From Solwaraspora sp. WMMD406 (GTDB taxonomy: Bacteria; Actinomycetota; Actinomycetes; Mycobacteriales; Micromonosporaceae), in the NCBI RefSeq assembly GCF_029626025.1, contig NZ_JARUBF010000001.1, positions 6,046,001-6,110,000 on the forward strand: a DNA stretch of 64,000 bases, given 5' to 3'. The position numbers and the translations under genes were made by a program. Shown here piece after piece: positions 1 through 16,231 of this stretch (its first letter is position 1; each line of letters opens with the position of its first letter). The notes beneath the pieces are model-generated. The model made no database searches. It was not told the origin of the DNA and saw only the letters and a list, made by a program, of their open reading frames with translations.

Positions 1-221
1 AGCACGATCGACGCGGCGCGGACCGCCGCCGCGATCGGCCTGGTGTCGAAGCCGTCGCCGACAGCGGCCGCACGGTACTCGTCGGCGCGATTGCCGACAA
101 TCACCTGAAGTCCGCTGTCGCGCAGATTGGCAGCGAACGCCTTGCCCTGGATGCCGTAGCCGATCACGGCCACGAGCTCGCCGTCGACGTCGTCGAGGCT
201 CGCGTCTCTGTCGAAGTACAT
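1..221 (-). CDS. Ketol-acid reductoisomerase-like protein, N-terminal part (gene continues off the left edge)
   Basis: The 73 visible residues begin [15 protein letters not shown] and carry a Rossmann GYGIQG motif, which is the KARI N-terminal fold. ATG at 221 follows a GGAGAG box. In biosynthetic IlvC the same motif usually reads GYGSQGHA and is followed by a basic/serine loop that binds the NADPH phosphate. Here it reads GYGIQGKA and the loop after the second strand is GNRADEYR, with Asp and Glu, which suggests NAD(H) use. The gene lies 182 bp downstream of an NRPS-PKS operon on the same strand, so a specialised-metabolism role (BurG-like cyclopropanol formation) is more likely than branched-chain amino acid synthesis. 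The C-terminal domain is not visible, so the catalytic residues cannot be checked. Confidence 0.75.
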
Positions 222-403
222 TCCTGACCACTCTCCGTATTCAGACGTACGTGTGGAGGGCCTGCCACCGTCGCCGCGCGCCATCACGCGTGGTCGTGCG
301 TCATCGCGCCGGTGGGCGGACACGGGTACCGGGAGTCGGAAGGGACAGGTGTCGGGGTCGGCCGGTTGCCCGGGTTCTGGTGGATTGCTCGGATTCTGGT
401 CGG

Positions 404-2326
404 TCAGTCGATCCCGCCGGCCCGGACGCGCTCGGCGGGAACCGGGGACATCTGGTGGACAGGGTGCTCGACCTGCGCGGACAGGGCCGCCGGTCGGTGT
501 TCCCGGATGCGTGCGCCGAGATCCGCGAAGCGCATGTTGCGGGTGTAGACCTCGGCGAGCCGCGCGAACTCGGCTTCGCGCCGCTGCCCCGACCAGGCCA
601 GCAGCTCACCCATCTCGCGCAGCGCCAGATCGAGGACGTCGAGGTCGAGGTCACAGCGACCGGCGTCGTCGAACACCACGGCGTCCCGGATCCCACCGAA
701 GTTCAGCAGGTAGTCCGCGTAGCTGGTGGCCATCAGATGATGGACGTGGTGGGCGACCTTTTTCCGCAGGAACTGTGGATCCCGTCGAGCCGGTGGGGCG
801 CTGTGCGGCGCGTACCGGTCATCCTCCGGTACGGCCAGGAAATCCAGCCGCTGCGTGGTCGACCGTCCGAGCCGCTTGACGCCCTTGCGGCGCAGCTCCC
901 GAGCGATGTGCGCGGCGACTTCCCGGCCCGCCCACCGGAACTCGGTGAGCTTCACGTTGATCATGTCGTAGATGGCACCGCCGCCCTGACGCCGAACCGT
1001 GATCCGGAACATCCGGGAGATGTCCTGTACGGCTATCTCGCCGCCGTCGTTCGACGCCAGTGGCCGGATTCCGCAGAAGACGTTGAAGATGTCCCGTCGA
1101 CCGATCTTCCACTGGTCGCTCACCAAAGCGTTGTAGGAGTGCAGGAGTTCCTCGATCTCGTCTTCCTCGGGAACGACGAGGTCGGGGTCGACGTGCGCCC
1201 GGTCGGTGGTGGTGCACTGGATGTACCAGAGGCCGTGCTGATGGAACGGCCGCAGGTAGTGCTGGCGTACGGCGTTGAGCGGCACCAGCCCGACCTGCAG
1301 CGCCGGATCCGCTGACAGGCTCTCGTGGATGAACCGATTCGTCGCCTCCAGGTGCGAGCCCCGGGAGTAGACCACCGACGTTCGCCCGTCCGGCTGCGCC
1401 GTCCGGCTGCGGGCCTGGTCGATCCACGGGCCGGCGGCGTTGGTGATCGTGTGGGCCTTGACGGTGATTTCCGTCGGCAGTGTGTCGTCGGCGAAACGCC
1501 GGGCCAGCGTCACCAGGAAGTGGCCGCCGGCGGGGTCGTCCGTCCACTCGTAGTGTGCGACCTCGACATGACACAGTGCGCGAATGGGATGCGTCTCGGT
1601 GCCCCGATAGTAGGCGTCGCGGATCGCCTTCACCACCAGGACCTTGTCGTTGTTCGCCTTGCCTTCCCAGTACCTGATGCCCCCGAGCACGTCGTCGGCG
1701 GCCAGGTTGGGCAGGGCCCGGTGCAGCGACTCCTTGTTCCAGTACAGTTTCACCCGGCTGAACCGGGGAACGAAACTCACCCAGGCCCACAGTGCGGCGA
1801 AGGCGTCGTAAAGCGAGATGCCGAAGAACACCGACCACTTCTTTTCGGGGCTGTCCGGCAGGACGAACACGACGTTGGGGATCTCGTCCACCGTCCGGCG
1901 ACTGGTTTCGAGCAGGATCTTGCGCTCCCGGGTGCCGTACCAGACGAGCTGTAGATCCAGCCAGGCTCCCCGCAGGTTCTGCGTGAACGACTGCTTGATC
2001 TTGGGGTCGCGGCGCAGGCGGGCCGCCAGCAGCAGCCGGTGGAACGCCATCCGCAGGTAACGGATGCCAGGATGGATCGCCTTGCCCGTCTTGCTGGACG
2101 TCTCGCCCCCGAACGTGCCGCGCTCGACCAGGATAGCGCTGGCGTTGGACCGGGAGGCGAGGTCACGGAGCACCCCGGCGCCCGCCGCCCCGCCGCCGAT
2201 GACCACCGTGTCGTACACGCGATCGGGTTGGGTCCCCGACTCCTCGGCCAGCTGCCGATACTGGCGCACGACGTCCGACATGGCGAACGAGTGGGCCGCC
2301 GGCCCGGTGTGCCTCGCCTCGATCAC
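404..2326 (-). CDS. FAD-dependent glycerol-3-phosphate dehydrogenase-like oxidoreductase (GlpA/GlpD family)
   Basis: 640 residues. An N-terminal dinucleotide-binding motif ([11 protein letters not shown], about residues 41-51) and the following Glu ([26 protein letters not shown] begins the FAD-contacting stretch) are typical of GlpD-type flavoproteins. 'TNAAGPWID' in mid-protein is the usual late FAD motif of the family. GTG at 2326 is chosen because it overlaps the TGA of the upstream kinase (GTGA) and follows GAGGAGG by 9 nt. As the third gene of a tightly overlapping NRPS-PKS operon it probably oxidises a hydroxyl or phosphorylated hydroxyl of a pathway intermediate rather than central-metabolism glycerol-3-phosphate. 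The substrate is not deducible from sequence. Confidence 0.8.
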
Positions 2327-3423
2327 GATGCTCGACCTCCTCGATGTAGTGCGATCACCCGATGGTCGGTGTCGCGCCGAGCCCGGAAGGTGATCGCCCG
2401 GTCGGGTGGAATCGGCGAGGTCACCTGCCAGTCCCACGCTCTGTCGATCATGTACGCCATGAACGCGCGGATGTGGTCCCGTCCCATGCCACGGGCCCCG
2501 CGCCACCGCTCGACCAGTTGCTCCTGCGCTTCACGTTCCCGCACCATCTGCTCGAACGACGGCCAGTCGAAGCACCAGAGGGCGTCCATCCGGTCGAACA
2601 CCGGTCGCCACGAACGCAGGTGCTCGGCGACCCGCCGACGAAGCCCGTCCGGCACCGCCAGCGGATCCACCGTGGTGTCCGCCCCGGCGAACCAGAGGTC
2701 GAACAGCAGAACGCCGATCGTTCCCCGTACCTCGAACCAGCGGTCCGGCCCGGACGGATGGTCGTCGATCTTCTTGTCGAAGTTGGCCATCCTGATCACG
2801 CTGCCTGGGTGGCTGTGCTCCATCTCCCGCAGATTCCGCAGCAGCCAGGCGAGGTCGTGGGTGCCCGGCAGCGACCGGTTCGACACCCCCGGCACCCCCG
2901 GGTCGTATCCGTCGGCGACGAGCAGTTCGCGTTCGCGCCGCCCGAGGTACCAGTGGTCGCCGCTACGCGCCACCGCCCGTCCCTCCGTGTCCGCGTCGAG
3001 CAGCTCGTCGAGCACGACCGCCAGCGCGTTGGTCAGCACCGTCTTGCCGGCACCCGGGCTGCCGTTGAAGCCGACGACGTAGAGCTCGTTGGAGCGCCGC
3101 CGCCGCTTGCGCGTCACGATCCACTCGGCGAGCGGAAGGTACAGCCGCCACAGCTCGACCAGCGGTACGGGGGTGCCGTCGGTGGAGAAGTACGCTCGCC
3201 ACCACCGAGCGAACGCCGGCCACACCCGCCGCAGGGTGTGCAGCTGGCGCTCGGCTGTCACGGCTGTCCACGGCCCGTCGTTTCCTTCCCCGACGAGCAG
3301 CCCTGAGACCGGATCCTGCCGGATCGTCTCGACCAGGACCGCCAGCTCGCGCCCGCCGATGGCGGCACCGTCGACGACCGACCGCAGGATCGGATCGAGG
3401 CGGGTGTCGACGGCTGCGATCAT
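2323..3423 (-). CDS. P-loop small-molecule kinase, D-glycerate 3-kinase/uridine kinase-like
   Basis: 366 residues. A Walker A motif GSPGAGKT lies at residues 121-128 inside GFNGSPGAGKT, followed by a kinase-like core (SLPGTHDLAWL, then ANFDKKIDDHP) that resembles the plant/fungal glycerate 3-kinase and PRK/uridine kinase branch. The roughly 110-residue N-terminal extension is not recognised. ATG at 3423 overlaps the TGA of the PKS gene (ATGA), and the 3' end overlaps the flavoprotein start (GTGA), so translation of all three is probably coupled. Likely role: ATP-dependent phosphorylation of a hydroxy-acid intermediate in the same pathway, possibly to activate it for the flavoprotein or KARI-like step. 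The substrate assignment is inference. Confidence 0.7.
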   Translation of the reverse strand: MIAAVDTRLDPILRSVVDGAAIGGRELAVLVETIRQDPVSGLLVGEGNDGPWTAVTAERQLHTLRRVWPAFARWWRAYFSTDGTPVPLVELWRLYLPLAEWIVTRKRRRRSNELYVVGFNGSPGAGKTVLTNALAVVLDELLDADTEGRAVARSGDHWYLGRRERELLVADGYDPGVPGVSNRSLPGTHDLAWLLRNLREMEHSHPGSVIRMANFDKKIDDHPSGPDRWFEVRGTIGVLLFDLWFAGADTTVDPLAVPDGLRRRVAEHLRSWRPVFDRMDALWCFDWPSFEQMVREREAQEQLVERWRGARGMGRDHIRAFMAYMIDRAWDWQVTSPIPPDRAITFRARRDTDHRVIALHRGGRAS

Positions 3424-6400
3424 CGGTTGGTCCTGTCTGGCTGGTAGCCGGCGAGCACCCCGTGCAGATCGCCGAGCCGCTGGTCGGGTTTCGCGATCAC
3501 CGCCAGCGGTACTTCCGCGCCGAACGAGCTGGCGAAGTCCCCCCTGATCCGGGCGAAGTCCAGCGAATCAAGCCCAAGCTCGGTCAGCCTCTTCGACTCG
3601 TCCCATCGGTGCACGTACCTGCTCAGGAAGGCTCGGACGTCGTCGGTGCCGTCGACCGGCTCCGGGCCGGCGGCGCTCCGTTCAGCGGTGGTGGTGGTGC
3701 CCTCGGCAGGGAACCGGTCACCCGAGAACCGCCGGCCGGCGATCCGACGGGCGTCGGCGACCGCCGAGATCAGCGGCAGTCGCGCCCACGGCGAACGCGG
3801 CCACTCGATGTCGCAGACGACCAGGTTGCGCCGGGTCGCGCCGCCAGCGAGGGTGGCGGCGAGCACCCCACCGAGCAGGGTCAGCCCGACGCTGGTCCGT
3901 ACCGGGGTTTCCCCGCTGACCCGCGCCGCCTCCACCGCCTTTGCGCTGCGCGCGGCCATCCCGGCCGCCGCCCAGCTTCCCCAGGCGATCGTGACCACGT
4001 GCGGACCACCGGACGGCGTCGACCACATCGCGTAGGTGTCCATCCACGCGTTCGCGGCAGCGTAGTTCGCCTGGCCGGGTACGCCGAGCAGCCCGCTGGT
4101 CGAGGAGAACGCCACGACCCATCCCGCGCCCGCCACCCGACCGACGTCGACCAGCTGGGACAACGCGAGCTTCGGGGCGAGCACCCCGGCGAGCCGCTCC
4201 CCGGTCAGGTTGCGCACGACGCCGTCGTCGAGTGTTCCGGCCAGGTGAAAGACGCCATCGAGCGGACCGGTGACGGCCGCGACCGCCGCCGGGTCGATCG
4301 GTGCGGCCAGGTCCAGCTCGACGAATCGGATACCCGGCCGTAGATCACCCCGGTCGGCCCGGCCGGACACGACGATCCGCTCGGGCGGTACGCCTTGGTG
4401 CTGGATGAGCCAGTCGGTGACCACCCGGCCGAGGCCACCGGTGCCACCGGTGAGCAGATACCGGCCGGTGGTGGCACCGAGCGTCCCCGCCGGCAGCCGC
4501 GGTACGGCGACCGACTGCAGCCGTTGGGCGAACAGGAGACCGCCGCGATAGAGCAGATCGTCTTCCTCCGGGTGCGCCGCCGCGAGTCGTAGGATCCGGC
4601 TGAGCAGGTCTTGGCCCGTTCCGGCAGCGGACCCGTCCGGTACGGCGACGCCGTCCGCCGGCCGGTCCCCCACGCCGTCCGCCGGCCAGGTGTCGACGTG
4701 GATCCGCTGGACGGTGAGCCCCGGTTCCTCCTGTGCCAGCGACCGGGTCAGTCCACTCACGATCCCGCTGGCCGCGTCGGCCGGCACGACCACCACCAGC
4801 CGTCCGCGTACCTCCGCGTCGGCCACCGCGCGGAGCAGGTCGAGCAGCCGGGTGGCGTGCTGGACCAGCGTGCGTCCCGGCGCGCTCCGACACAGCAGCG
4901 CGACCCGCGCGTCGGGGGCGGTCAGGGTGTCCCGCACGAACCGGACCCCGTCCGTGGTCGTGCCGGCCCAGACGTCGAGGCACCGGGTGGCGACGGTCGG
5001 CGCGACGGCGCTCGGCGAGGCGACCGGCACCCAGTTCACCTCGGCGCACAGGTCCACCGCCCGGTCGTCCGCCCCGCCGAGGATCGGGTCGAGTCGCTCG
5101 ATCAGCGAGACGATTCCGTCAAGGATGCCCGCCCGCTCGCGGACCATGAAGTCGTGCGCACCGTCGTGGCATCGCACGTCGGTGATCACATTCGTGGTGA
5201 TCGCTGCCCAGTCCCGCGCCGACCCGGCTGCTAAGGACGGGTCGCGCGTACCGCAGTGCACCTGCACCGGGGCATCGACCAGCGCTGCCCCGTGTGCCGC
5301 CTGACGCCGCCGGATCCGCAGCTCGGCGCGGGCATCGGCGGCCAGATCCGCTCGGAGGACCGGCAGCACCGACCTTGTCCACTGCGGATTGTCGCGGATC
5401 TCTTCCGGTGCCATCAGGTAGCTGTCCACGGGCTCGTCGCCGACGTCGACTCCCGGAACGATCGGGGCTCGGCCGACGAGGCAGAGCAGGCTCACCCGCC
5501 GGGCGTGTGCCCAGTCGGCGAGCGGGCCGCCAAGCAGGTCGAGCACCAGGGAGGCCCCGAAGCTCATGCCGCAGAAGGCGACCGCGCGGTCTCCGGCGTC
5601 CGCCCGGATACCAGCGGCGAGTCGGGCCAGCATCCGCACGTCGGCGTCGTCGGCGGCCGGCAGGTCGGCGTCATCGGCGGCCGGTGACGCGGGGCGTCCT
5701 GGCAAATCCACCGCCACGATGTCCAGCCACGTCGGGGCCGCGTGTGCCCACGACTGGAAAGCGGTCGAGCCGCCACCCGCGTACGGAAAACAATAGAGCG
5801 TCACCGTGGCGGCCGGCCTGGTCACGAACCGGACAATCCGGGCAGCTGCCGCCGTACCGTCGGTGTCGGCCCCTTCGGCGGTGCCAGCAGGCTCGACCAC
5901 GGGGCTGGCGTCGCCGACGGAGCCCGGGCCGGCCGCCACCACCCCACCGACGTATATCGACGCCTCCGGCCTGGTCCAGTACCGGGTCCGTTCGAACTCG
6001 TACGTGGGTAGCCGATGCCGCACGACGGACCGCGCCGGTGACCCGGACCCGGTAGCGCGCAGCGCCCTGAAGTCGACGTCGACGCCGTGGCACCACAACT
6101 GGCCGATCGCCGCCAGCAGGATCTCGCCGTCGTCGCGGTGCGGATCGCGGGGGTCGTGCAGGAGGCTGACCGGCTCGGAGACGGGTCCACGCCCGTCGCC
6201 GGCACCGTCGCGCGGTTCCAGGCACTTCCTGGCCAGGGTGGTGAGCACACCGCCCGGTCCGACCTCCACCAGCACGTCGGGCGTCCACTTGAGCAGCGTT
6301 TCCACGTTGTCGCGCCACCGAACGGTGGAGACCGCGTGGTCACCCCAATACCTGGCCGGTTGGTACGCGGCGTCGAGCCAGGTGCCGGTCAGGTTGCTGG

Positions 6401-9400
6401 CCATCGGTATCGCGGCCGGCCGGGCCGGGATGTCGGCCGCCGCCGTGCGCAGCCGCTCGGCCACCGGGGCCAGCAAGTCACTGTGGAACGGATGCGACAC
6501 CGGGACCGGCCGACATGTGAAGCCCAAGGTCGGCAAGTCTTCCAGGGCCCGCCGCAGCGCGGCCGGCGTACCGGACAACACCACTCGTCCCGGCGCGTTC
6601 ACCACGGCGAGCCAGAGACCGGAACGGGCGACCAGCCAGTCGTGCAGCCGCTGCTCGTCACCGACGACGCTGAGCATCCCGCCGAGCGCGGAGTCGGCCG
6701 CGTCGGCGCCCGGTAGCGCCTCGGTCGCCTGGGCGCGTGCCGCCACCAGTCGCGTCGCCTCATCGAGAGTCAGCACACCGGCCAGCACCGCGGCGGCGTA
6801 CTCGCCGACGCTGTGACCGGCCACCGCCACCGGACGCACGCCGATGTCGACGAGCGTCGCCGCGAGCGCGTACTCCACGGCGAACAGCCCGCACTGGGTG
6901 ATCATGGGACGTCGCACCGTCTGGTCGTCGGCACCGAGAATCGCCTCGGCCGGATCGGCGGGCAGGTTCCGGGCCAAACCTCGGCAGGCGGCGTCGAAGT
7001 GGCGGCGGAACCGGCCGCCGTCGACCCGTCCCCGATAGAGGCCACGCGCCATACCCGCGACCTGGGACCCCTGTCCGGGAAAACAGAAGGCGACCGTACC
7101 CGCCCGGGCCGGCCGGCCGAGACCGGCCAGCAGCCGGGCGTCGAGACGGACCGAATCCGCGCCGGACACCGACTCTGCGGTCACGACGGCGCTGGCCCGT
7201 ACGGCGTGCGCCGGCCGGGTCAGCCGCGCGACGTCGATCGCCGGGCCAACCTCGTCTGCCGGCAGTGTGGTGAGGAACCGGGTGAGCCGCGCCGCGTTGC
7301 GTCGGGCCGCCCGTTCATCGGCCCCCGAAACGGTCAGCAGATGCGGCGTACCCGGCGACGGTCGACGCTCGCCGGTGCCCGGGGAACCCTGCGACGCGGT
7401 CTCGTGCGGTGCCGCTTCTTCGAGGATGACGTGCGCGTTCGTGCCACCGATGCCGAAGCTGGAGACGCCGGCCCGGCGCGGCAGCTGGGTGGCGGGATCG
7501 GACACCGTCCAGTCCCCGTAGCTCTCCTGGACGACGAAAGGTGATCCGTCACAGTCGACCAGGTCGACCAGTTTCGGGTTGAGCGTCGCGTAGTTCACCG
7601 TCGGTACGAGTGCTCGGTGGTGCAGGCACAGCACCGCCTTGATCAGGCCGGTGATCCCGGCGGCGCAGTTGGCATGGCCGATGTTGCCCTTGACACTGCC
7701 GATCGCGCAGCTGCCGGTGGTCGGGCCGGCACCGTCACGATGGCGATCGAACGCCTCGCGTAGTCCGGCGAGCTCGATGGCGTCTCCGACGTGGGTCGCG
7801 GTCGCATGACACTCCACGTAGGAGATCTGCTCGGCGGTCACCCCGGCCATCGACATGGCGTCGGAGATGCACCGGGCCTGAGCACTGGCGCTCGGCGCGG
7901 TGTAGCCGGCCTTCATCCGTCCGTCGTTGGACACGCCGAAGCCGGTGAGGACGGCCCAGACATGATCTCCGTCAGCGATCGCGTCGTCGAGGCGTTTGAG
8001 CACGACCGCGCCGACCGCGTCGCCGAACAGCGTTCCACTCGCGTCGGCGTCGAACGGACGGACCCGTCCGTCGATGCTTCCCACCAGGCCTTCCTCGTAG
8101 CGGTAGCCGAAGTTGGGAAAATTGATCGACGACGCTCCGGCGATCGCCATCTCGCACTGCCCGGTCATGATGGACTGCGCCGCCGACGCGACGGCGACCA
8201 GGCCACTGCTGCACGCCGACGTCACCGTGACCGCCGGACCGCCCAGATCCAGCAGGTACGCCACCCGGGTCGCGATGTAGTCCTTCTCGTTGCCGATCTC
8301 GGTCAGGAACAGCCCGGCCGGGTCCAACGGCTGCGTCAAGCCGCCACCCTGGAGGTGATGGACCAGGTATCCGTCGATGCCGCAGGCGGCGAAGACGCCG
8401 GTGCGGTGGCGGTACGGATTGTCGCGCCGCGCGTACCCGGCCTGTTCGAGCGCCCCCCACGCCACCTCGATGAACACGCGGTGCTGAGGATCCATCAGCA
8501 GGGCTTCCCGTTGGCCGATCCCCCAGAATTCGGCGTCGAACGCGTCGACGTCGTCGATGACCTGCCCGACGCCTACCCACTGTGGATGGTCGAGGGCCCC
8601 GTCCGGGACGTTCTTGTCACGTAGCCGGTCGGTGGGATACACCGTGAGGGAGTCGACGCCCATCGTCAGGTTCGCCCAGAACTCGTCGATGGTCTTCGCA
8701 CCGGGGAACCGCCCGGACATCCCGACGATCGCCACCTTCGTCGTCGGCGCGGCCGGGCCGGATCGCCGAGGTTGGCCGACGGGGGTCGCGACCGGCGCGG
8801 CGGTACCGGAGCATCGGGCCGCCATGGCGCGCAACGTACTGAACTGGAAGACCTCGATCACCGGCAGCGATATTCCGTACCGTTGCGCGAGCAAGCCGGA
8901 CAACCGGGCGGCGCTGAGCGAGTCACCGCCGACGTCGAAGAAGTTGTCGTCCGGCGCGGGCGGTGGGATTCCCAGCACTTCCTGCCAGGCGGCGGCGAGC
9001 CGCTGCCGCATCATGGCGGCCGGCCCGGCCGGCTCTGGCCCGGCGCTGCCGCCCGAACCGGCGACGGCGTCGAACGCGGTGTCGTCGAGTGCGGCGGTGG
9101 TGGTGTCGATCGCGGTTGTCGTGTCGTCCGGCGCGGGCAGCGCGGACAGATCGAGCTTACGCGAACTGCCGCGGCTGATCGGCAGGGCGTCGAGTCCGAT
9201 CACGCGCCGCGGTCTGGCGTACTCGGGAAGGTCGTTCCTGGCCCGCTGTCGCAGCCGCGCGAGAGTGGTCCGCGACGGGGCGCCGTCGTCGCCGACAACG
9301 TATGCCACCAGTCCGTTCGGCTGACCGGTGTGGGTGTCCGTCATCGGCCGCACCACGACCCGCGAAACGCCCGGCTGGCCGCTCAGAACGTGTTCGACGG

Positions 9401-11567
9401 CACGCAGTGACACCTTGAATCCGCGGATCTTGACCACGTCTCCGACGCGGCCCAGGATCTCCAGTGCGCCCTCGGGCAGCAACCGGGCACGGTCACCCGT
9501 TCGGTAGAAGGTCGCGCCGGCGAACGACGATCCGGCGAGAGCGGGCGGGCACGGCACGAATCGTTGCGCGGTCTTCTCCGGGTCGTTCAGATAGCCGACG
9601 GCGACGCCGGGACCGGCGACGTGGAGTTCTCCGACACCCCCGTAGGGAACGGGGCGTCCGTCGTCGCCGAGCAGGACGGCGGCGCTACCGTCCAGGACGC
9701 GGCCCACCGGCGCGTAGGCCGACGGCCGCACCGGGCGTGCGGCGTCGTCGGTCGGGCGCGGCAACAGATCCGCGTACGACACGTCCAGACTTTCCCAGGT
9801 GCTGTAGGCATTCACCAGCCGTACGTGACCGGGCAGCAGCGCGGCGGCCTTGTCGACGACCCGGGTGGGGACGACCTCGCCCATCAGGAACACCAGCTCC
9901 AGGTGGTGCAGTTGGTCGGCCAGCGACGGTCCGGCGGTCTGGTGGTCCAGCACGCTTTCCAGCAGGGACGGCGTGACGACGAGGCGCGTGACACCATGGT
10001 CGGCGACGGTACGCACGAGCCGTACCGGATCAACGATGTGGGCGTCCGGGATCACCACGGCGGGTTTGCCCACCAGCAGGGGCCGCAGACACTCCCAGGC
10101 GAAGAACACGTTGAGCCCTTCGCGAGACGACTCCTGGTACGGGTAGAGCGCGTACCGGGCGTCGAAGCAGTAGAGGCAGCCGAGGTGGGAGTTCACCACC
10201 GCCTTCGGGGTCCCGGACGTCCCGCTCGTCATGGAGATCAGCGCGGTGTCGGCCGGATCGACGTACGGGAAGCTCACCTGCCGGGCCGGGGCCGCCGCAG
10301 GTCCCTGGTCGGCCCGGGTGAACGGGTCCGTCGGTGACGTGCCGCCCAGGAGCACGAGACGTTCGGGGGCCTGGTAGGCGTCCGGGAGGAGGCCGGCGAG
10401 TTCAGCGGTGGTCACGACGGCTCGCACGCCCGCGCTGTCGAGGAACTGCGCGAGTAGTGACGCCGGCCAGTTCTTGTCCAGCAGGCAGGCGGGCGTGCCG
10501 AGGCCGAAGCAGCCGAGCAGGGCGAGACAGTATTCGGCGGAGTGCGGCAGGAGCAGACCGACCACGTCGCCTTTGTCGAGCCCACACGCGACGATGCTCG
10601 CGGCCACCGCCGTGGCGTCCCGGTCGAGCTCGCGGTAGGTCCAGGTCCGGGGCTCGTCGACCAGGGCCAGCGCTTCAGGGGTCGCCGCCACCTGCGCCTG
10701 GAACCGGTCCCACAGGCTACCTGCGGCGTGCGGCTGGTAGCCGCGATCGGCCATCACGATCGACGGACCGACCCGGGTTCGCACCTGGTCGAGGTGTCGG
10801 CTGACGCTGGCCAGCAGTGCGCGCTGGGCACTGACGGTGTAGAAGTGACCGCCGGGAAAGGTTTCGACGGTGTACGGCGCGGTGTCGGCGACATGCTCGC
10901 GCCAGGCGTGCAGGTCGGCCAGGTCGACCGTGCGGTCCTGGGCGCCGCCGTACACGACACAGGCGACTTCGAGCCGCTCGCCGGTGTCCCCGCCGGTCCG
11001 ACACGGATAGGTCTCGTCGAGCTGGAGGTCGGCGCGCAGCGGGGGCAGGACGAGCCGTAGTAGGTCCCGGTCGGCGAGCAGGTCGTCGGGCACGAGTCCC
11101 CATGCGCGTACGAGCTCGACGAAGTCGTCGTCGTCAAGGGTGTGGCGGTTCTCGCCGGCAGGCACGTGTGGCGCCCGGTGCGCGGACAGGAAGAGGATCT
11201 CGGGCTGACGGCGGCCTGCCTGGCGCAACTGACGACAGACCTCGAAGGCGGTCAAGGCACCGAAACTATGGCCGAAGAAGGCGAACGGTGTGCCGTCGTC
11301 GATGCCGTCCAGCATCGCGAGGAGGTCGCTGACCATCGGCTGCCACTGTCGATAGGGGGCGACGTGTCGTCGGGTACCTCTGCCCGGTAGGGAAAACGAG
11401 ACGAGTTCGACATCGTCGGGCAGGTCAGCAGGCCAACCGGAGAAGATGGAATGAGTTCCGCCGGCATGCGGGAACGCGATGAGCCGTAGGGCGACGTCCT
11501 CACGTCGAGAGAGGATCGACGCTTCGACGCCAGAGGTCGGGCCGGGCACTCGTGCGGACCGTAGCAA
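3420..11567 (-). CDS. NRPS-PKS hybrid megasynthase, TE-A-T-KS-AT-TE-KR-T (BurA-like architecture)
   Basis: 2715 residues. Domains in order: type II-like thioesterase 25-265 (GHSFG, Ser101, His241); adenylation 285-815 (TSGTSGTPK at 448-456, Lys804); carrier 850-920 (GGDSL, Ser883); ketosynthase 944-1390 (Cys1119, His1254, His1298); acyltransferase 1490-1790 (GHSVG, Ser1586; HPFH at 1692-1695, malonyl-type); second, embedded thioesterase 1922-2160 (GMSFG, Ser2002, Asp2109, His2138); ketoreductase with structural half 2175-2600 (TGGTGGLG, LDD at 2446-2448 = B-type, Tyr2502); carrier 2643-2710 (LGLDSL, Ser2668). All catalytic residues look intact. TTG at 11567 is chosen because GGGGGAG sits 7 nt upstream. 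Predicted chemistry: activate a carboxylic acid, extend it once with malonate, reduce to a 3-hydroxy acid and release it through the internal TE. Confidence 0.93.
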   Translation of the reverse strand: MLRSARVPGPTSGVEASILSRREDVALRLIAFPHAGGTHSIFSGWPADLPDDVELVSFSLPGRGTRRHVAPYRQWQPMVSDLLAMLDGIDDGTPFAFFGHSFGALTAFEVCRQLRQAGRRQPEILFLSAHRAPHVPAGENRHTLDDDDFVELVRAWGLVPDDLLADRDLLRLVLPPLRADLQLDETYPCRTGGDTGERLEVACVVYGGAQDRTVDLADLHAWREHVADTAPYTVETFPGGHFYTVSAQRALLASVSRHLDQVRTRVGPSIVMADRGYQPHAAGSLWDRFQAQVAATPEALALVDEPRTWTYRELDRDATAVAASIVACGLDKGDVVGLLLPHSAEYCLALLGCFGLGTPACLLDKNWPASLLAQFLDSAGVRAVVTTAELAGLLPDAYQAPERLVLLGGTSPTDPFTRADQGPAAAPARQVSFPYVDPADTALISMTSGTSGTPKAVVNSHLGCLYCFDARYALYPYQESSREGLNVFFAWECLRPLLVGKPAVVIPDAHIVDPVRLVRTVADHGVTRLVVTPSLLESVLDHQTAGPSLADQLHHLELVFLMGEVVPTRVVDKAAALLPGHVRLVNAYSTWESLDVSYADLLPRPTDDAARPVRPSAYAPVGRVLDGSAAVLLGDDGRPVPYGGVGELHVAGPGVAVGYLNDPEKTAQRFVPCPPALAGSSFAGATFYRTGDRARLLPEGALEILGRVGDVVKIRGFKVSLRAVEHVLSGQPGVSRVVVRPMTDTHTGQPNGLVAYVVGDDGAPSRTTLARLRQRARNDLPEYARPRRVIGLDALPISRGSSRKLDLSALPAPDDTTTAIDTTTAALDDTAFDAVAGSGGSAGPEPAGPAAMMRQRLAAAWQEVLGIPPPAPDDNFFDVGGDSLSAARLSGLLAQRYGISLPVIEVFQFSTLRAMAARCSGTAAPVATPVGQPRRSGPAAPTTKVAIVGMSGRFPGAKTIDEFWANLTMGVDSLTVYPTDRLRDKNVPDGALDHPQWVGVGQVIDDVDAFDAEFWGIGQREALLMDPQHRVFIEVAWGALEQAGYARRDNPYRHRTGVFAACGIDGYLVHHLQGGGLTQPLDPAGLFLTEIGNEKDYIATRVAYLLDLGGPAVTVTSACSSGLVAVASAAQSIMTGQCEMAIAGASSINFPNFGYRYEEGLVGSIDGRVRPFDADASGTLFGDAVGAVVLKRLDDAIADGDHVWAVLTGFGVSNDGRMKAGYTAPSASAQARCISDAMSMAGVTAEQISYVECHATATHVGDAIELAGLREAFDRHRDGAGPTTGSCAIGSVKGNIGHANCAAGITGLIKAVLCLHHRALVPTVNYATLNPKLVDLVDCDGSPFVVQESYGDWTVSDPATQLPRRAGVSSFGIGGTNAHVILEEAAPHETASQGSPGTGERRPSPGTPHLLTVSGADERAARRNAARLTRFLTTLPADEVGPAIDVARLTRPAHAVRASAVVTAESVSGADSVRLDARLLAGLGRPARAGTVAFCFPGQGSQVAGMARGLYRGRVDGGRFRRHFDAACRGLARNLPADPAEAILGADDQTVRRPMITQCGLFAVEYALAATLVDIGVRPVAVAGHSVGEYAAAVLAGVLTLDEATRLVAARAQATEALPGADAADSALGGMLSVVGDEQRLHDWLVARSGLWLAVVNAPGRVVLSGTPAALRRALEDLPTLGFTCRPVPVSHPFHSDLLAPVAERLRTAAADIPARPAAIPMASNLTGTWLDAAYQPARYWGDHAVSTVRWRDNVETLLKWTPDVLVEVGPGGVLTTLARKCLEPRDGAGDGRGPVSEPVSLLHDPRDPHRDDGEILLAAIGQLWCHGVDVDFRALRATGSGSPARSVVRHRLPTYEFERTRYWTRPEASIYVGGVVAAGPGSVGDASPVVEPAGTAEGADTDGTAAAARIVRFVTRPAATVTLYCFPYAGGGSTAFQSWAHAAPTWLDIVAVDLPGRPASPAADDADLPAADDADVRMLARLAAGIRADAGDRAVAFCGMSFGASLVLDLLGGPLADWAHARRVSLLCLVGRAPIVPGVDVGDEPVDSYLMAPEEIRDNPQWTRSVLPVLRADLAADARAELRIRRRQAAHGAALVDAPVQVHCGTRDPSLAAGSARDWAAITTNVITDVRCHDGAHDFMVRERAGILDGIVSLIERLDPILGGADDRAVDLCAEVNWVPVASPSAVAPTVATRCLDVWAGTTTDGVRFVRDTLTAPDARVALLCRSAPGRTLVQHATRLLDLLRAVADAEVRGRLVVVVPADAASGIVSGLTRSLAQEEPGLTVQRIHVDTWPADGVGDRPADGVAVPDGSAAGTGQDLLSRILRLAAAHPEEDDLLYRGGLLFAQRLQSVAVPRLPAGTLGATTGRYLLTGGTGGLGRVVTDWLIQHQGVPPERIVVSGRADRGDLRPGIRFVELDLAAPIDPAAVAAVTGPLDGVFHLAGTLDDGVVRNLTGERLAGVLAPKLALSQLVDVGRVAGAGWVVAFSSTSGLLGVPGQANYAAANAWMDTYAMWSTPSGGPHVVTIAWGSWAAAGMAARSAKAVEAARVSGETPVRTSVGLTLLGGVLAATLAGGATRRNLVVCDIEWPRSPWARLPLISAVADARRIAGRRFSGDRFPAEGTTTTAERSAAGPEPVDGTDDVRAFLSRYVHRWDESKRLTELGLDSLDFARIRGDFASSFGAEVPLAVIAKPDQRLGDLHGVLAGYQPDRTNR

Positions 11568-11632
11568 GCCGGCGCTCCCCCACGTGGTCGGCAGAGATGA
11601 TCTTTACGCGCCATCACTGTAGCAACACGCAG

Positions 11633-11657
11633 TGTCAATAGACAGTCGATCATCGAC
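11633..11657. promoter_or_regulatory. Candidate -35 element and palindrome upstream of the NRPS-PKS operon
   Basis: On the minus strand a TTGACA hexamer lies at 11638-11633, about 65 nt upstream of the TTG start of the megasynthase. No convincing -10 box follows at 16-18 nt. Just upstream is an inverted repeat GTCGAT-N-ATCGAC (11645-11657), a possible operator. The 295 bp between the operon and the PRC-barrel gene hold nothing else I can support. Confidence 0.3.
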
Positions 11658-11862
11658 AGTCGTGAATCCTCACATTCTCGACGTTCTCGCTCAGTCCGCC
11701 GCACATCCGCAACCCGGAGGAGCCACTGGGCACCGCACCATCCGGCCGCACGACCAGAGGTAGCCGAGACGTCGGCACCGCACCGGGCTCGCCGGGTTTG
11801 CCGACAGCCCGCGTGCGGTAATCAACAGGGATGAGGTGACCGTGACCCAGACAGGAGGCAGC

Positions 11863-12282
11863 ATGCAGACCGATGGCTTCGCGAAGCTGGTCAGGTTGGG
11901 CGACACCGGTGAGATGGTGGCGGATCCGGCCGAGGACATTCGTGGCCGGAAGGTGCACGACGCGGAGGGCAACGAGATCGGCAAGGTCGACGACCTGCTG
12001 GTCGACGAGGCCGAACACAAGGTCCGGCTACTTCGGTTGGAACACGGCGGGATCCTCGGCTTCGGTGCCACGCCGTCGTTCGTCCCGGTCGACGCGATCA
12101 CCCGGATCACCGATGACGTGGTGCACATCAACGAGTCGCGGGACCGGGTGGCCGGAGCGCCACCGTACGATCCGGAGCTGGTGTCGCAGGACAAGTACTA
12201 CGAGGATCTGTACGGCTACTACGGGATCCCGCCGTTCTGGGGCGTCGGGTATGTCTACCCCGGCTACCCGTACTACCGCTAG
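11863..12282 (+). CDS. PRC-barrel domain protein
   Basis: 139 residues. Residues 20-75 (DIRGRKVHDAEGNEIGKVDD, then the strand pair LLRLEHGGILGFG) form a PRC-barrel, a small beta-barrel found in RimM, photosynthetic reaction-centre subunit H and stress proteins. The C-terminus is rich in Tyr, Pro and Gly (DLYGYYGIPPFWGVGYVYPG), which is common in actinobacterial members and may interact with membranes or RNA. ATG at 11863 follows AGGAGG by 4 nt; an in-frame GTG at 11836 is a weaker alternative. Monocistronic, ending in a perfect hairpin shared with the convergent permease gene. Function unknown beyond the fold. Confidence 0.85.
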   Translation: MQTDGFAKLVRLGDTGEMVADPAEDIRGRKVHDAEGNEIGKVDDLLVDEAEHKVRLLRLEHGGILGFGATPSFVPVDAITRITDDVVHINESRDRVAGAPPYDPELVSQDKYYEDLYGYYGIPPFWGVGYVYPGYPYYR

Positions 12283-12340
12283 CCAGCGCATCGGCGGACC
12301 TGCTCGACGGCCGGTCCACGAATCACCTGACCTGACATCC

Positions 12341-12366
12341 GGGCCGCGGCGACGACGCCGCGGCCC
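12341..12366. terminator. Bidirectional hairpin terminator between convergent genes
   Basis: A perfect 11-bp stem, GGGCCGCGGCG at 12341-12351 and CGCCGCGGCCC at 12356-12366, with a 4-nt loop. It lies between the ends of the PRC-barrel gene (12282) and the permease gene (12405). No T-tract follows, as is usual for GC-rich actinobacterial terminators. Confidence 0.7.
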
Positions 12367-12403
12367 GTAGCCGTCTGGGACGCCGCGGCCCGTAGCCGTC
12401 TGG
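12354..12403. repeat. Perfect 25-bp tandem duplication
   Basis: Two identical 25-nt units, 12354-12378 and 12379-12403, lie head to tail immediately after the permease stop codon (12405-12407 on the minus strand). The first unit includes the right arm of the terminator hairpin. Confidence 0.9.
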
Positions 12404-12404
12404 T

Positions 12405-13769
12405 TCAGCCGACCAGCTGCTGCCACAGGTAGTAGAGCGCGAACCCGGTGAAGAACACCACCGCCGCGACCACCAGTGTGGTCGCGGTCCGGCCGGCGCG
12501 CAGCGCGCGCGGCAGCGCACGCCGGTTGAGCCAGAGGACCAGGGCGGCGACCAGTGGAATGTGCACGGCCTCGATGGAGCCGGCCAGGGTCAGCAGCGCG
12601 ACCGGGTCACCGAAGATCAGGAACACGGCGTACGGCAGGGTCGCCAGCCACACCACGACGGCGGTCCGGCTGATCACCACCGGGCGGGCGAGGGTGTGCT
12701 CGGCGAGTCGTTGCGGCAGCAGACGCCGTACGCCGTCGGTGTAGAGCCGCTGCCACCCGTCGACGTTGGTGAGCGTGGCGGTCCAGAAGGCGGACACCAG
12801 TCCGACGATCATCAGCCAGAAGCCGACGCTGCCGAACACCTCGCTGAACAGGCGGGTCAGGTCGCGGGCGACGTCGGCCTCGGCGGGCACGATTCCTTCC
12901 GGCCGCAGCAGTTCGGCGCCGAGGACCAGGAACGCGACGGTGATCAGTGCGACGCCGACCACCGCGAACGTCGAGTCGAGGGTCATCGTGCGCAGCCAGC
13001 CGCGTACCCGGTCGATCTGCCGAGCGTCGAGATCGCGCGGATCGCGGCGGTCCGTCGCCGGCACCCCGGCGTGGCCGATGCCCTTGGCGGTGACCCAGTA
13101 CGAGTACCACATCAGCCCGGCCGCACCGTTGGACAGGAACCCGAGCCAGGGCAGGATCTCGGCTACCTGGAGATCGTCGGGCGGCACCGGGACGAACCCG
13201 GCGGCGGCCTCGGTCAGGTCCGGCCCGACCTGGATCGCGGCGACGACCGCGCCGAGGGCGAGCGCGACACCGAGGATCCGGGACACCCATTCCACGCCGG
13301 TGTAGCGGCCGAACAGCACCAGTCCGGCGGCGGCGGCGATGACCACGCCGGTCCAGAGCTGGATCGGACCGGGTACGGCGAGAGCGAGCGCGCTGCCGGC
13401 GGCACTGGCGATGCCGGCGATCGCGGCGATCCCGACCACCAGCTGTGGCAGCAGGATCACCCAGATGGCCCAGCCGCGCGGGCCGGGTAGGCCGGCCAGG
13501 CCGGTGAGCAGCCGGCGGCCGGTGACGACGCTGTAGCGGCCGATCTCCCTGGTCACGAAGAGCTTGAGGATCAGTACGGCGACCAGCGCCCACATCAGGC
13601 TGTAGCCGTACTGGGCGCCGACCCTTGGGGTGAACAGCAGTTCGCCGGTGGCGAGGGCGGCGAGCGCCCACAGCACACCGGGGCCGATGTAGCGGAACCG
13701 GCGCCAGCCGGTCGGCGGCTCGGGGATGCCGGTCGACCGCTGTGAGGCGGTCTCGGTCGCCTGGCTCAT
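12405..13769 (-). CDS. Nramp-like (SLC11-related) divalent metal permease
   Basis: 454 residues with about 11 hydrophobic segments spread over the whole length. The first segment begins YIGPGVLWALAALATGELLF, and segment 6 carries a conserved-looking YSYWVTAKGIGHAG turn, both as in Nramp-family relatives. The canonical metal-binding DPGN of segment 1 is not present (APC-type Nramp outgroup members also lack it), so the ion cannot be assumed to be Mn2+ or Fe2+; Mg2+, Al3+ or another solute is possible. ATG at 13769 follows GAAGGAGAC by a good distance; an upstream in-frame GTG at 13835 lacks a binding site. Transcribed divergently from the secreted-protein gene. Confidence 0.75.
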   Translation of the reverse strand: MSQATETASQRSTGIPEPPTGWRRFRYIGPGVLWALAALATGELLFTPRVGAQYGYSLMWALVAVLILKLFVTREIGRYSVVTGRRLLTGLAGLPGPRGWAIWVILLPQLVVGIAAIAGIASAAGSALALAVPGPIQLWTGVVIAAAAGLVLFGRYTGVEWVSRILGVALALGAVVAAIQVGPDLTEAAAGFVPVPPDDLQVAEILPWLGFLSNGAAGLMWYSYWVTAKGIGHAGVPATDRRDPRDLDARQIDRVRGWLRTMTLDSTFAVVGVALITVAFLVLGAELLRPEGIVPAEADVARDLTRLFSEVFGSVGFWLMIVGLVSAFWTATLTNVDGWQRLYTDGVRRLLPQRLAEHTLARPVVISRTAVVVWLATLPYAVFLIFGDPVALLTLAGSIEAVHIPLVAALVLWLNRRALPRALRAGRTATTLVVAAVVFFTGFALYYLWQQLVG

Positions 13770-13887
13770 TCCGGGTCTCCTTCGGGGGGTGGGCTTCCTG
13801 GTCTGCGCCCTTGCCGAGCCCGTACCCAGTGACACCGGCCCGTACGCTAGATCGACTCACAGAAGGCGGATGACATCGCTCTGTAAC

Positions 13888-13903
13888 ATAGGTAGCCTTA
13901 GAT
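13888..13903. promoter_or_regulatory. Possible DtxR/MntR-type box
   Basis: The 16 nt ATAGGTAGCCTTAGAT lie in the divergent region upstream of the Nramp-like gene. They resemble, imperfectly, the TTAGG-TAG-CCTAA layout of iron/manganese-dependent repressor sites. The match was judged by eye only. Confidence 0.2.
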
Positions 13904-14035
13904 GCGATCCCGTCGTGCGGTGACCGTCCTCAAGGGTCGGCGGGGCCACGGCCAGCCCACCGAGATCCACACCGGACCAGATTGGTCACGCGCACCGACC
14001 TCAGGAACCAGCACCAGCCTCAGGAAAGGAAGGAC

Positions 14036-14545
14036 ATGAAGCGTGCACTGCTGCGCGCGGCGACCGTCCTCGCCGCCGCACTCGCCGCCAGCGCCCTCGC
14101 CGCCAGCGGCGCGACCGCGAGCCCGTCGATCCTGCAACGGTTCTCCGTCCCGTCTGCGGACAACTGCACGTACGGCTACACGCAGGGCCACCTCGAATGG
14201 CGCTCCCCCGGGCCCTCCAGCGCGGTACGCCTGGCCGGGGTGATCGCCGACCGGCCGATGCCCAACGATCCGGGCACCGTCTGCCGCGACGACCGCCGGT
14301 ACACCATCGCCAGCTACACCGCCTACGCCGGCAACGTCCCAGTCGACGAGGCCGCCCGCCGGGTCGACAACGGCCTCGTGGAGTTCGACTTCGTCCTCGG
14401 CGCGAACTCCTCCGCCCGGGGTATCGACCGCGTCATCATCCAGGTCTGCCGGCACGCGCTGCCCGGCAGCGTAACCCCGGCTCCGGACTACTGCAGCCGC
14501 CAGTACACCTTCACCCCGTGGACGACCAACCCGACGACGTCCTGA
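14036..14545 (+). CDS. Small secreted protein of unknown function
   Basis: 169 residues. A clear signal peptide (MKRALLRAATVLAAALAASALAASGATA) is followed by a mature domain of about 140 residues with four cysteines (DNCTYGYTQG, TVCRDD, QVCRHA, YCSRQY), likely forming two disulfides. ATG at 14036 follows AAGGAAGGA by 3 nt. The mature sequence resembles other secreted actinobacterial proteins of unknown function; I do not recognise a named family. It ends in a strong bidirectional terminator. Confidence 0.75.
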   Translation: MKRALLRAATVLAAALAASALAASGATASPSILQRFSVPSADNCTYGYTQGHLEWRSPGPSSAVRLAGVIADRPMPNDPGTVCRDDRRYTIASYTAYAGNVPVDEAARRVDNGLVEFDFVLGANSSARGIDRVIIQVCRHALPGSVTPAPDYCSRQYTFTPWTTNPTTS

Positions 14546-14584
14546 GACCTCGCCAGCGCACGACGACGCCCCGTACTCCGGTGT

Positions 14585-14616
14585 GGTGCCCACGGCCCGG
14601 TCGGACCGTGGGCACC
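14585..14616. terminator. Bidirectional hairpin terminator
   Basis: Perfect 11-bp arms GGTGCCCACGG (14585-14595) and CCGTGGGCACC (14606-14616) with a 10-nt loop. The hairpin separates the secreted-protein gene from the convergent MFS gene. Confidence 0.75.
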
Positions 14617-14623
14617 AGTACGG

Positions 14624-15850
14624 CTAGCGGACGGCGACGGCGCGGCGGTGCGCCACCCAGAGAAGGAAGGTCGCCACGCACAGGATGACCATGCCCACTG
14701 CGAACGGCGCTCGGAGACCGGCCTCGGCGGCGACGACACCACCGATCGCGGCACCCGCCGACGCCGACGTGGCGCTGATGAAGCGAAAGATCGACGAGAC
14801 CCGGCCGAGCATCTCCACCGGAGCCACGGACTGTTGCGTCGAGACAACCGGTACGGTGATCAGCGAGGATGCTCCACCGGCGAGCACCATCGCCACGGCG
14901 ACCGCCCCCACGCCCGGCGCCACCAGCACGATCAGCCAGGAAATCGCCTGCAGGAGCAGGGCAGCCAGAACGAGCCGCATCGCGGAGGCCGATCGGAGGA
15001 TACGCGGGGCCACCCAGCTACCGGCCACGCCGCCCAGGGCCCCGACAGCGAAGAGAACGCCGGTCGCTGCTTCGCTCAGCGCGAGCTCCAACGTCAGATA
15101 CAGCACCAACGTCGAGGTGGCCAGCCGGAACGCGAAGTTGTAGGCGCCGCCGCTCAGGTACTGCACCAGCAACGCCCGGGACCGCCACACGAACGTCGCC
15201 GCGCACCGCAACGATTCCATGATCGAGGTGTGCCGGCCCGGTGTCGGGCTATCCACGACCGGCAGAAGTCGTACCATGACGGCCGAGACGGCGAAGGTCA
15301 CCGCGTCGCCAACGAACGGCACGACCCTGCCCACGGCGAACGACAACGACCCCAACGGCGGGCCGATCAGGCCACGGCCCAGCATGTCCAGAGCCCAGTA
15401 TCGGCTGTTGAACCGCTGCAGTGCGGCCTCGTCCCGGCCTACCAGCAGCGGGATCATCGACTGCGACGCGGTGTCGAAGAAGCACTGGGCGATGCCCAGT
15501 ACGACGACGACCGCGATGATCGCGCCGATTCCGACCTGATCAACGACGATAAGGACGGCCAGGACGGCCAGAGCGATCACCCGCACCAGATCGGCCACGA
15601 TCATCGTACGGCGCTTGGGCCAACGGTCGACCAGAGCGCCGGCGGGCATGCCGAAGAGCAGCCACGGGATGGAGAAGGCAGCGGTCACCAGCCCCAGCGC
15701 GACCGGGTCGTCGGTGATCGTCGTGGCCAGCAGCGGCGCGGCCAGAAAAAAGGCACCGTCACCGGTGGTGGAGATCCCGACTGCGGCGAGCATCGGGGTG
15801 GCCCGACGGCGACCGACACCAGGGGTAACGGACGGGGACGTTGTCGACAC
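14624..15850 (-). CDS. MFS transporter (multidrug/enterobactin-exporter type)
   Basis: 408 residues with about 12 hydrophobic segments. The signature loop between segments 2 and 3, GALVDRWPKRRTMIVADL, fits the MFS_3 drug/siderophore exporter family. GTG at 15850 follows AGAGGA. It stands alone between a terminator and the DUF397 gene, so no substrate can be proposed; export of a small molecule by proton antiport is the family expectation. Confidence 0.85.
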   Translation of the reverse strand: MSTTSPSVTPGVGRRRATPMLAAVGISTTGDGAFFLAAPLLATTITDDPVALGLVTAAFSIPWLLFGMPAGALVDRWPKRRTMIVADLVRVIALAVLAVLIVVDQVGIGAIIAVVVVLGIAQCFFDTASQSMIPLLVGRDEAALQRFNSRYWALDMLGRGLIGPPLGSLSFAVGRVVPFVGDAVTFAVSAVMVRLLPVVDSPTPGRHTSIMESLRCAATFVWRSRALLVQYLSGGAYNFAFRLATSTLVLYLTLELALSEAATGVLFAVGALGGVAGSWVAPRILRSASAMRLVLAALLLQAISWLIVLVAPGVGAVAVAMVLAGGASSLITVPVVSTQQSVAPVEMLGRVSSIFRFISATSASAGAAIGGVVAAEAGLRAPFAVGMVILCVATFLLWVAHRRAVAVR

Positions 15851-15962
15851 GTTTCCTCTCCACCGACACGGGCGGCAGTGCGATGGTGCGCGTCACCGCA
15901 GATACAGCCAGCGGTGACGCGCACCATCGCACTTAGCGGTCTCAACTCGTCAGCTGGTCCTC

Positions 15963-16030
15963 GAGGGTTATTCAGGCTAACGTCGAGCATAAGCTTGACC
16001 TGCGGCGATGTACACGCCTGAATAACCCTC
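15963..16030. mobile_element. 68-bp MITE-like element, copy 1
   Basis: Bounded by perfect 15-bp terminal inverted repeats, GAGGGTTATTCAGGC at 15963-15977 and GCCTGAATAACCCTC at 16016-16030, and flanked by a 3-bp direct repeat CTC (15960-15962 and 16031-16033). All 68 bp are identical to the copy at 43332-43399. The 38-bp core contains a second, imperfect palindrome (GTCGAGCAT/AAGCTTGAC) and is too short to code for a protein. The target duplication and identical copies indicate non-autonomous transposition using a transposase from elsewhere in the genome. It forms the last codons and stop of the DUF397 gene. Confidence 0.85.
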
Positions 16031-16231
16031 CTCGTCGAACTCGCCCTGGCGCGCGCCGCCGAGGAAGGCAGCCCACTCGCCCGACGTGAAGGCAAGCACC
16101 GGACCCGCCTCACCTTGCTTGCTGTCCCGAACACCAATCAGACCGCCAGCATACGCAACTTCCACGCATTCACCCGTCATGCTGAGGTTTGACTTCCGCC
16201 AGCGCGCGCCGGCAAATCGGCTGTCCGTCAC
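15977..16231 (-). CDS. DUF397 domain protein with a C-terminus rewritten by a MITE insertion
   Basis: 84 residues. ARWRKSNLS, CVEVAY, VRDSKQGE and FTSGEWAAFLGGAR are the diagnostic blocks of DUF397, small actinobacterial proteins usually encoded next to an XRE (Scr1-type) regulator. GTG at 16231 follows GGGAGAGG by 4 nt. No XRE partner is adjacent, so it is an orphan. The last 17 residues, from EGYSGVY onward, are encoded by the 68-bp element. Removing the element plus one CTC copy restores a frame ending GEFDEDQLTS and stop, a normal DUF397 ending. The core domain is intact, so the protein may still work. Confidence 0.85.
   Translation of the reverse strand: MTDSRFAGARWRKSNLSMTGECVEVAYAGGLIGVRDSKQGEAGPVLAFTSGEWAAFLGGARQGEFDEEGYSGVYIAAGQAYARR

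Follow-up and report, generated by a model that had tools for sequence, protein, structure and literature searches.

What is made by the gene block that straddles the left edge of this DNA? The window, a 64,000-nucleotide stretch of the Solwaraspora sp. WMMD406 genome (contig NZ_JARUBF010000001.1, positions 6,046,001 to 6,110,000), opens with a ketol-acid reductoisomerase (KARI)-like gene, a GlpD-like flavoprotein gene, a P-loop kinase gene and a hybrid synthase gene. An earlier note on the sequence had read these four as a relative of the malleicyprol (bur) pathway that might make gonyol or a cyclopropanol. The cluster is halved by the window edge, the minus-strand run continuing to the left of position 1. 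Gene calling by a codon-usage script on 16 kb added to the left of the window completes it as an operon of ten minus-strand genes, from the synthase through an IMPase-family phosphatase with its leftmost end at -7681, and three plus-strand genes convergent to the operon (-10839 to -7696). Judged from its gene content, the block probably makes cleonine, 2-amino-2-(1-hydroxycyclopropyl)acetic acid, free or in a small peptide. The genes are listed below. Position n of the window corresponds to G000:C1:6046000+n of the 7.16-Mb genome, and negative n lies left of the window.

3420..11567, minus strand: BurA-like hybrid synthase, 2715 amino acids (Pfam and alignment)
2323..3423, minus strand: P-loop kinase, D-glycerate 3-kinase-like (remote PDB matches)
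404..2326, minus strand: GlpD-like FAD (flavin adenine dinucleotide) protein (PDB and family matches)
-759..221 (1..221 in the window), minus strand: BurG-like KARI (PDB matches, tree)
-2198..-786, minus strand: class III aminotransferase (family match)
-3708..-2212, minus strand: pyridoxal phosphate (PLP) decarboxylase (family match)
-4651..-3710, minus strand: MmtN-like methyltransferase (family and PDB match)
-5709..-4648, minus strand: TauD-type oxygenase (family match)
about -6911..-5718, minus strand: SerC (family match)
-7681..-6908, minus strand: IMPase-family phosphatase (family match)
-10839..-9595, plus strand: ATP-grasp amino-acid ligase (family or PDB match)
-9448..-8207, plus strand: MFS exporter (family match)
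-8184..-7696, plus strand: YbaK editing protein (family or PDB match)

The four genes first noticed all lie on the minus strand, as described. Overlaps of 4 nt join the synthase to the kinase, the kinase to GlpD, and SerC to the phosphatase. The overlapping unit proposed in the earlier note thus holds for the first three genes but does not extend to the KARI gene, which is separated from GlpD by 182 bp, the one wide gap in the operon. The other minus-strand neighbours range from a 4-nt overlap to a 26-bp gap, given a revised SerC start that probably lies near -5718 and not at the -5880 of the gene caller. The likely KARI start is placed at the ATG at 221 rather than the GTG at 323, because a relative in Agrobacterium vitis aligns from that ATG.

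The KARI groups with BurG, as had been proposed, and stands outside the IlvC enzymes. Among PDB structures it matches BurG chains best (292 bits), and the next, non-BurG KARI scores 204 bits. It is 49.4% identical to BurG, whereas identity to eight IlvC-type proteins, one of them the genome's own, is 34–39%. A tree of 12 rows contains four members of the BurG group and eight IlvC-type proteins (six from plasmids, one from a phage and the genome's own), the plasmid and phage rows being picked from 18 listed plasmid IlvC-type matches and four phage matches. BurG and the proteins of Eleftheria terrae, A. vitis and WMMD406 separate from the IlvC rows at 100/100, and WMMD406 pairs with A. vitis at 94/94. 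The KARI of Rhizobium lusitanum was left out because it is read in two pieces. The separate IlvC, encoded elsewhere in the genome, falls among the eight IlvC-type rows near Rhodococcus and Streptomyces. In BurG, Asn48 and Asp51 are reported to exclude NADP and Glu232 is catalytic (PMC9359912); N44, D47 and E228 are in register with these residues. A KARI search of 298 genomes of the order (E <= 1e-75) returned WMMD406 itself and nothing else.

The synthase has the architecture and starter-domain loops of a bur-type enzyme, in agreement with the earlier proposal of a BurA-like protein. The comparator was the E. terrae bur-type synthase. Pfam recognizes two thioesterase stretches together with AMP-binding, PP-binding, ketoacyl synthase, acyltransferase and ketoreductase (KR) domains:

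Residues 28-254: thioesterase (TE)
Residues 289-660, C-terminal part to 799: adenylation (A) domain
Residues 855-918: carrier (T) domain
Residues 944-1326: ketoacyl synthase (KS)
Residues 1494-1784: acyltransferase (AT)
Residues 2368-2533: KR
Ser 2002, from alignment: second TE
Ser 2668, from alignment: second T

One carrier domain is found by Pfam, and the second carrier site, LGLDSLDFA, comes from the alignment alone. The order TE-A-T-KS-AT-TE-KR-T is the same as that of the E. terrae enzyme over the full length. Sequence identity is 51.1% to E. terrae over 2590 columns and 49.5% to the A. vitis homolog. The active-site motifs inspected are all present, including HPFH in the acyltransferase, a malonyl-type motif. 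All three synthases keep the segments NVFFAWECLRP and NAYSTWESLD in the A domain. In BurA, this domain is described as having a short, hydrophobic loop that lacks the Asp235 of amino-acid-activating domains, together with D606, an acidic pocket residue (PMC7496086). In WMMD406, the loop NVFFAWECLRP is at least four residues shorter than that of LgrA, and a Glu aligns at the presumed Asp235 column. D595, present in all three synthases, is assumed to be the counterpart of D606.

Some of the genes left of position 1 would supply dimethylsulfoniopropionate (DMSP). A methyltransferase and an oxygenase had been anticipated there and both are found, but the methyltransferase is MmtN-like and not a SET-domain enzyme. 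It is 56% identical to MmtN (7vvv) and 48% to the A. vitis member, the Group I criterion being above 50%. Asp69, Ser101, Leu102, Cys121 and Arg132 are reported in all MmtN enzymes (PMC9135737); of these, Ser101 and Arg132 are kept in all 13 other aligned MmtN sequences and are replaced here, as discussed below. The protein is best described as a putative MmtN-like enzyme and not as a proven Group I member. At the position of MmtN Glu127, where Asp is the reported variation (PMC9135737), five of 14 rows carry Cys (four) or Thr (one) (L012, L013, L014, L016 and L028). The N-terminal segment of the decarboxylase, about 72 amino acids, matches TusA weakly (Pfam E = 0.034), with no such match in the rhizobia. 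This TusA-like segment is fused to the enzyme in WMMD406 and is a separate 84-amino-acid gene in both rhizobia (L020:11362-11616; L028:11208-11462). The alignment to the E. terrae decarboxylase begins past it, at query residue 71.

The phosphorylated serine pathway runs SerA-SerC-SerB, and four genes of the operon recall it. A three-row profile of the kinase has two PDB matches at E <= 0.1, both D-glycerate 3-kinases (7xpc and 6ckg). The protein carries P-loop, D-x-x-Y-L, G-[ST]-H-D and D-K motifs at 121, 156, 187 and 216, although the likeness is remote, and its homologs in two rhizobial clusters are 46–47% identical. All four PDB matches of the corresponding GlpD-like profile (E <= 0.001) are glycerol-3-phosphate dehydrogenases or oxidases, and the rhizobial homologs are 53–55% identical. 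SerC scores above two NCBIfam phosphoserine transaminase cut-offs; a second SerC homolog is found elsewhere in the genome. Acting one after another, the kinase, the GlpD-like protein, SerC and the phosphatase could process a 2,3-dihydroxy acid. Their roles could be, in order, glycerate kinase, phosphoglycerate oxidase, phosphoserine aminotransferase and phosphatase. Gonyol or trigonic acid as endpoint leaves the four genes unexplained. They point to an amino-acid product, and gonyol, one of the products raised in the earlier note, is probably not where the pathway ends. The GlpD-like protein found itself alone among seven genomes of the genus (E <= 1e-60) and 396 genomes of the phylum (E <= 1e-80). 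A single-protein scan of genome contigs gave 22 pattern-matching stretches, none confirmed as a relative. The scan says nothing about rarity, because the A. vitis protein, at 53% identity, escaped it as well.

The same set of genes recurs in two rhizobia. A scan of genome contigs with an MmtN profile retained 11 loci out of 50 pattern matches; further MmtN clusters were probably missed because the scan used two patterns alone. One of the 11 loci, from A. vitis CG78, carries homologs of the ten operon genes and of YbaK. A plasmid search matched 55 records; among the 20 listed, two are at least 49% identical and the others at most 40.7%. It yielded loci on R. lusitanum p_4 (NZ_CP050306.1) and on an E. 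terrae plasmid (NZ_CP106953.1). The R. lusitanum locus has the same gene set, but the reading frames of its aminotransferase, KARI and synthase are broken up, perhaps through decay or sequencing error. The E. terrae plasmid, typed mobilizable, carries a bur-type cluster with a SET methyltransferase, an aldehyde dehydrogenase and a thioester-reductase synthase. Chance does not account for the gene grouping, because both rhizobia also have homologs of all ten operon genes and of YbaK gathered at one locus, though several of them are fragmented in R. lusitanum.

A presence table (tblastn, E <= 1e-10, about 10 kb each side of the MmtN loci) places the kinase, GlpD, SerC, IMPase and YbaK in WMMD406 and in both other loci that have KARI plus MmtN. 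None of the five is matched in any of the ten MmtN loci without KARI, nor in the one bur-type locus. Five of these ten loci also have the decarboxylase and aminotransferase, and five have MmtN alone. About 0.9–2 kb from the A. vitis operon are genes that carry a LysE-translocator domain and Lrp/AsnC domains, consistent with an amino acid as product; the LysE frame as called lacks the first 31 profile positions. The A. vitis operon is also flanked by short genes (G684:C1 about 1875366; 1899264-1905375) that resemble, by eye, parts of resolvases, transposases and integrases. The setting suggests that this operon lies in a mobile island.

In WMMD406, the cluster occupies a discrete insertion.

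-11305..11853 (1..11853 in the window), no strand: inserted block of 23.2 kb, holding the 13 called genes and no others

The flanking DNA was searched in seven genomes of the genus, including the source, with detailed alignment for three congeners. Homology stops at -11305 on the left and restarts at 11853, 11854 or 11868 on the right. The two flanks, 23.2 kb apart in WMMD406, are separated by 0.76–0.79 kb of different sequence in three of the six other congeners; in the remaining three, both flanks were not found together. The insert is not betrayed by base composition, with a G+C content of 69.7% in the operon and 70.2% and 68.0% in the flanks. The 13-gene block was apparently acquired horizontally. 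The right flank (window 11853-17550) is rearranged too relative to the three congeners, because the gene order farther right differs in them. In these congeners, sequence matching window 16.6-17.5 kb sits between PRC-barrel and Nramp genes.

The chemistry of BurA, BurC and BurG has been published (PMC7496086, PMC9359912), and a route from methionine to trigonic acid is very likely by homology. The MmtN-like enzyme would convert methionine to S-methylmethionine, from which the PLP decarboxylase, the class III aminotransferase and a housekeeping aldehyde dehydrogenase would give DMSP. The BurA-like synthase would load DMSP, extend it with malonate, reduce the product and release gonyol. The TauD-type oxygenase would turn gonyol into gonydiol, and the BurG-like KARI would form the cyclopropanol ring, expelling dimethyl sulfide and giving (R)-trigonic acid.

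Conversion of trigonic acid to cleonine is likely as well. Trigonic acid is R-configured (PMC9359912), which by our own comparison matches the configuration of D-glycerate. Structurally, the acid is glycerate with its C3 built into a cyclopropane; the kinase would therefore phosphorylate its cyclopropanol oxygen (3-O), and the phosphate would also mask the reactive group. The GlpD-like flavoprotein would then oxidize the C2 hydroxyl adjoining the phosphate, SerC would transaminate the 2-keto-3-phospho acid, and the phosphatase would strip the phosphate to leave cleonine. The net logic would be that of the phosphorylated serine pathway, with a GlpD-like oxidase in place of SerA.

The fate of cleonine is a more tentative matter. 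It may be freed as such or as a dipeptide under the protection of tRNA editing, a scheme that we rate somewhat below an even chance. The ATP-grasp ligase might couple cleonine into a dipeptide and the MFS protein might export it; both genes are matched in the WMMD406 locus alone among the loci compared. The ligase was considered as an essential gene and dropped, since neither rhizobial locus has a match. A three-protein profile of YbaK matches an uncharacterized protein, YbaK, ProXp-x (2cx5) and ProXp-ala (5vxb), with no subfamily clear, and ribosomal proteins come next at E about 0.015. YbaK belongs to the INS superfamily, in which ProXp-ST1 and ProXp-ST2 are reported to hydrolyze Ser- and Thr-tRNAs and the ProXp-ST1-related FthB to deacylate fluorothreonyl-tRNA (PMC11295145). 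By analogy, YbaK might hydrolyze tRNA mischarged with the threonine-like cleonine and so protect the producer. In A. vitis, the KARI and YbaK form a single reading frame of 513 amino acids, and in R. lusitanum one annotated coding sequence (72073-73233) spans the second KARI piece and YbaK. If cleonyl-tRNA is indeed the substrate, the A. vitis fusion would hold a warhead synthase and its antidote in one polypeptide. PADLOC gave no result on YbaK or the kinase.

Several points weigh against cleonine as the product. Because the two rhizobial clusters are alike, the recurrence in rhizobia counts more as a single independent confirmation than as two. The kinase matches are remote (47 and 35 bits), the GlpD family score is weak (112 bits against a cut-off of 360), and the phosphatase is nearest to HisN with a score under the HisN cut-off. 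By our own stereochemical comparison, C2 of sn-glycerol 3-phosphate is opposite to that of 3-phospho-D-glycerate, so the facial preference of the GlpD-like protein must differ. The best solved matches of the A domain are peptide-synthetase domains. The methyltransferase keeps three of the five MmtN residues, with Ser101 replaced by Asn and the methionine-binding Arg132 by Leu. The Asn48/Asp51 pair is no BurG-only marker, because two of the eight IlvC-type rows, both haloarchaeal, carry it, and the Glu is found in all eight. There is no aldehyde dehydrogenase among the 13 called genes. A burE mutant is reported still to make malleicyprols (PMC7496086), so the absence of a cluster dehydrogenase need not block the route.

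A further point opens the best surviving alternative, in which cleonine serves, as in valgamicin, as a building block for a nonribosomal peptide synthetase (NRPS) encoded at another site of the genome, while the ligase and exporter serve otherwise. With 29 condensation-domain matches in other parts of the genome, the product could be taken up by an NRPS, and both valgamicin C and cleomycin hold cleonine in larger peptides. However, no condensation domain is matched inside the insert, which does hold the ligase, the exporter and YbaK, and neither gene calling on the A. vitis stretch nor the annotation of the R. lusitanum stretches examined shows a second synthase. We consider this alternative unlikely. 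Less probable still is a role in precursor supply, in which the four serine-like genes would yield plain serine out of glycerate (or some other small phospho-acid). The kinase does match D-glycerate 3-kinase and SerC scores as a true phosphoserine transaminase, but the genome's other SerC homolog, the lack of any serine-requiring enzyme seen in the cluster and the lack of matches to the four genes in all ten MmtN loci without KARI argue otherwise, as does the D-glycerate configuration that we assign to R-trigonic acid (R-configuration from PMC9359912). That the pathway stops at gonyol, gonydiol or trigonic acid with the remaining genes incidental is equally improbable: the locus does encode BurA-, BurC- and BurG-like proteins, and DMSP and gonyol are known osmolytes (PMC7496086), but the 4-nt overlaps tie the kinase and GlpD to the synthase run and SerC to the phosphatase, all four serine-like genes lie inside one insert, and they recur in both rhizobial clusters and are unmatched in the bur-type locus. 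The osmolyte-only version was set low after the presence table across the MmtN, KARI and bur loci.

Cleonine as the product of the block would give a complete gene-by-gene route from trigonic acid to this amino acid. It also suggests that cyclopropanol chemistry is usable for a threonine-like antimetabolite, besides polyketides and larger peptides. Taken together, the loci may represent a mobile cassette across phyla, with a copy of the serine pathway grafted on the BurG route, phosphate as mask and an editing domain for protection, although we hold this broader view with less than even confidence. The fusion of synthase and editing domain would make for compact self-resistance and could serve as a tag in looking for more clusters.

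Related systems have been described. Nine other organisms are reported to have burG orthologs and all gonydiol genes (PMC9359912), and a DMSP assembly line of Streptomyces mobaraensis has been aligned with bur (PMC7496086). In both S. mobaraensis and A. vitis, mmtN is linked to an NRPS gene of BurA-like type, and such operons were predicted to give DMSP-derived metabolites, perhaps via gonyol (PMC9135737). The main texts of PMC9135737 and PMC7496086 do not mention a kinase, glycerol-3-phosphate, phosphoserine, a phosphatase or YbaK. Cleonine is a natural residue of valgamicin C from Amycolatopsis sp. ML1-hF4 (PMC13194151, PMC8037709). With S. mobaraensis and the Amycolatopsis valgamicin, the statement of the earlier note that no actinobacterial pathway of this kind had been described is outdated. 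In the literature searched, where Little et al. 2024 (ACS Chem Biol 19:660) figured by its title, no description of the steps from trigonic acid to cleonine was found. That work concerns cyclopropanol formation in the valgamicin pathway, and it reportedly derives the cleonine ring from DMSP in the manner of malleicyprol. The cleonine steps given here may already have been put forward there. Subject to its content, the cluster core is of published type, and the serine-pathway graft, the A. vitis editing fusion and the ligase–exporter pair would be new.

Compared with the bur/mal (malleicyprol) clusters, represented by the E. terrae bur-type locus, WMMD406 shares the synthase architecture and the starter-domain loops. 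BurC-, BurD-, BurG- and BurI-type enzymes are common to both, and the same route to trigonic acid is expected. However, an MmtN-like enzyme replaces the SET-domain BurB, the aldehyde dehydrogenase and the second assembly line are absent from the insert, and the kinase, GlpD, SerC, IMPase and YbaK are added. Among the mmtN-NRPS operons, that of A. vitis CG78 shares homologs of ten operon genes and YbaK with WMMD406. Cleomycin contains cleonine, and valgamicin C and cleomycin thus feature the same amino acid as predicted here, but in larger peptides. In contrast to the valgamicin C system, the WMMD406 insert has no condensation domain and instead encodes an ATP-grasp ligase, an exporter and a tRNA-editing protein. 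The kinase, 2-hydroxy oxidation, SerC transamination and dephosphorylation steps are shared with D-glycerate 3-kinase and the phosphorylated serine pathway, with a GlpD-like flavoprotein for SerA and an IMPase-family phosphatase for SerB. Finally, Streptomyces cattleya, a producer of a threonine analog, likewise has an INS-family-related editing protein, FthB (PMC11295145). The YbaK of WMMD406 is convergent to the operon, and that of A. vitis is joined to the putative cyclopropanol synthase itself.

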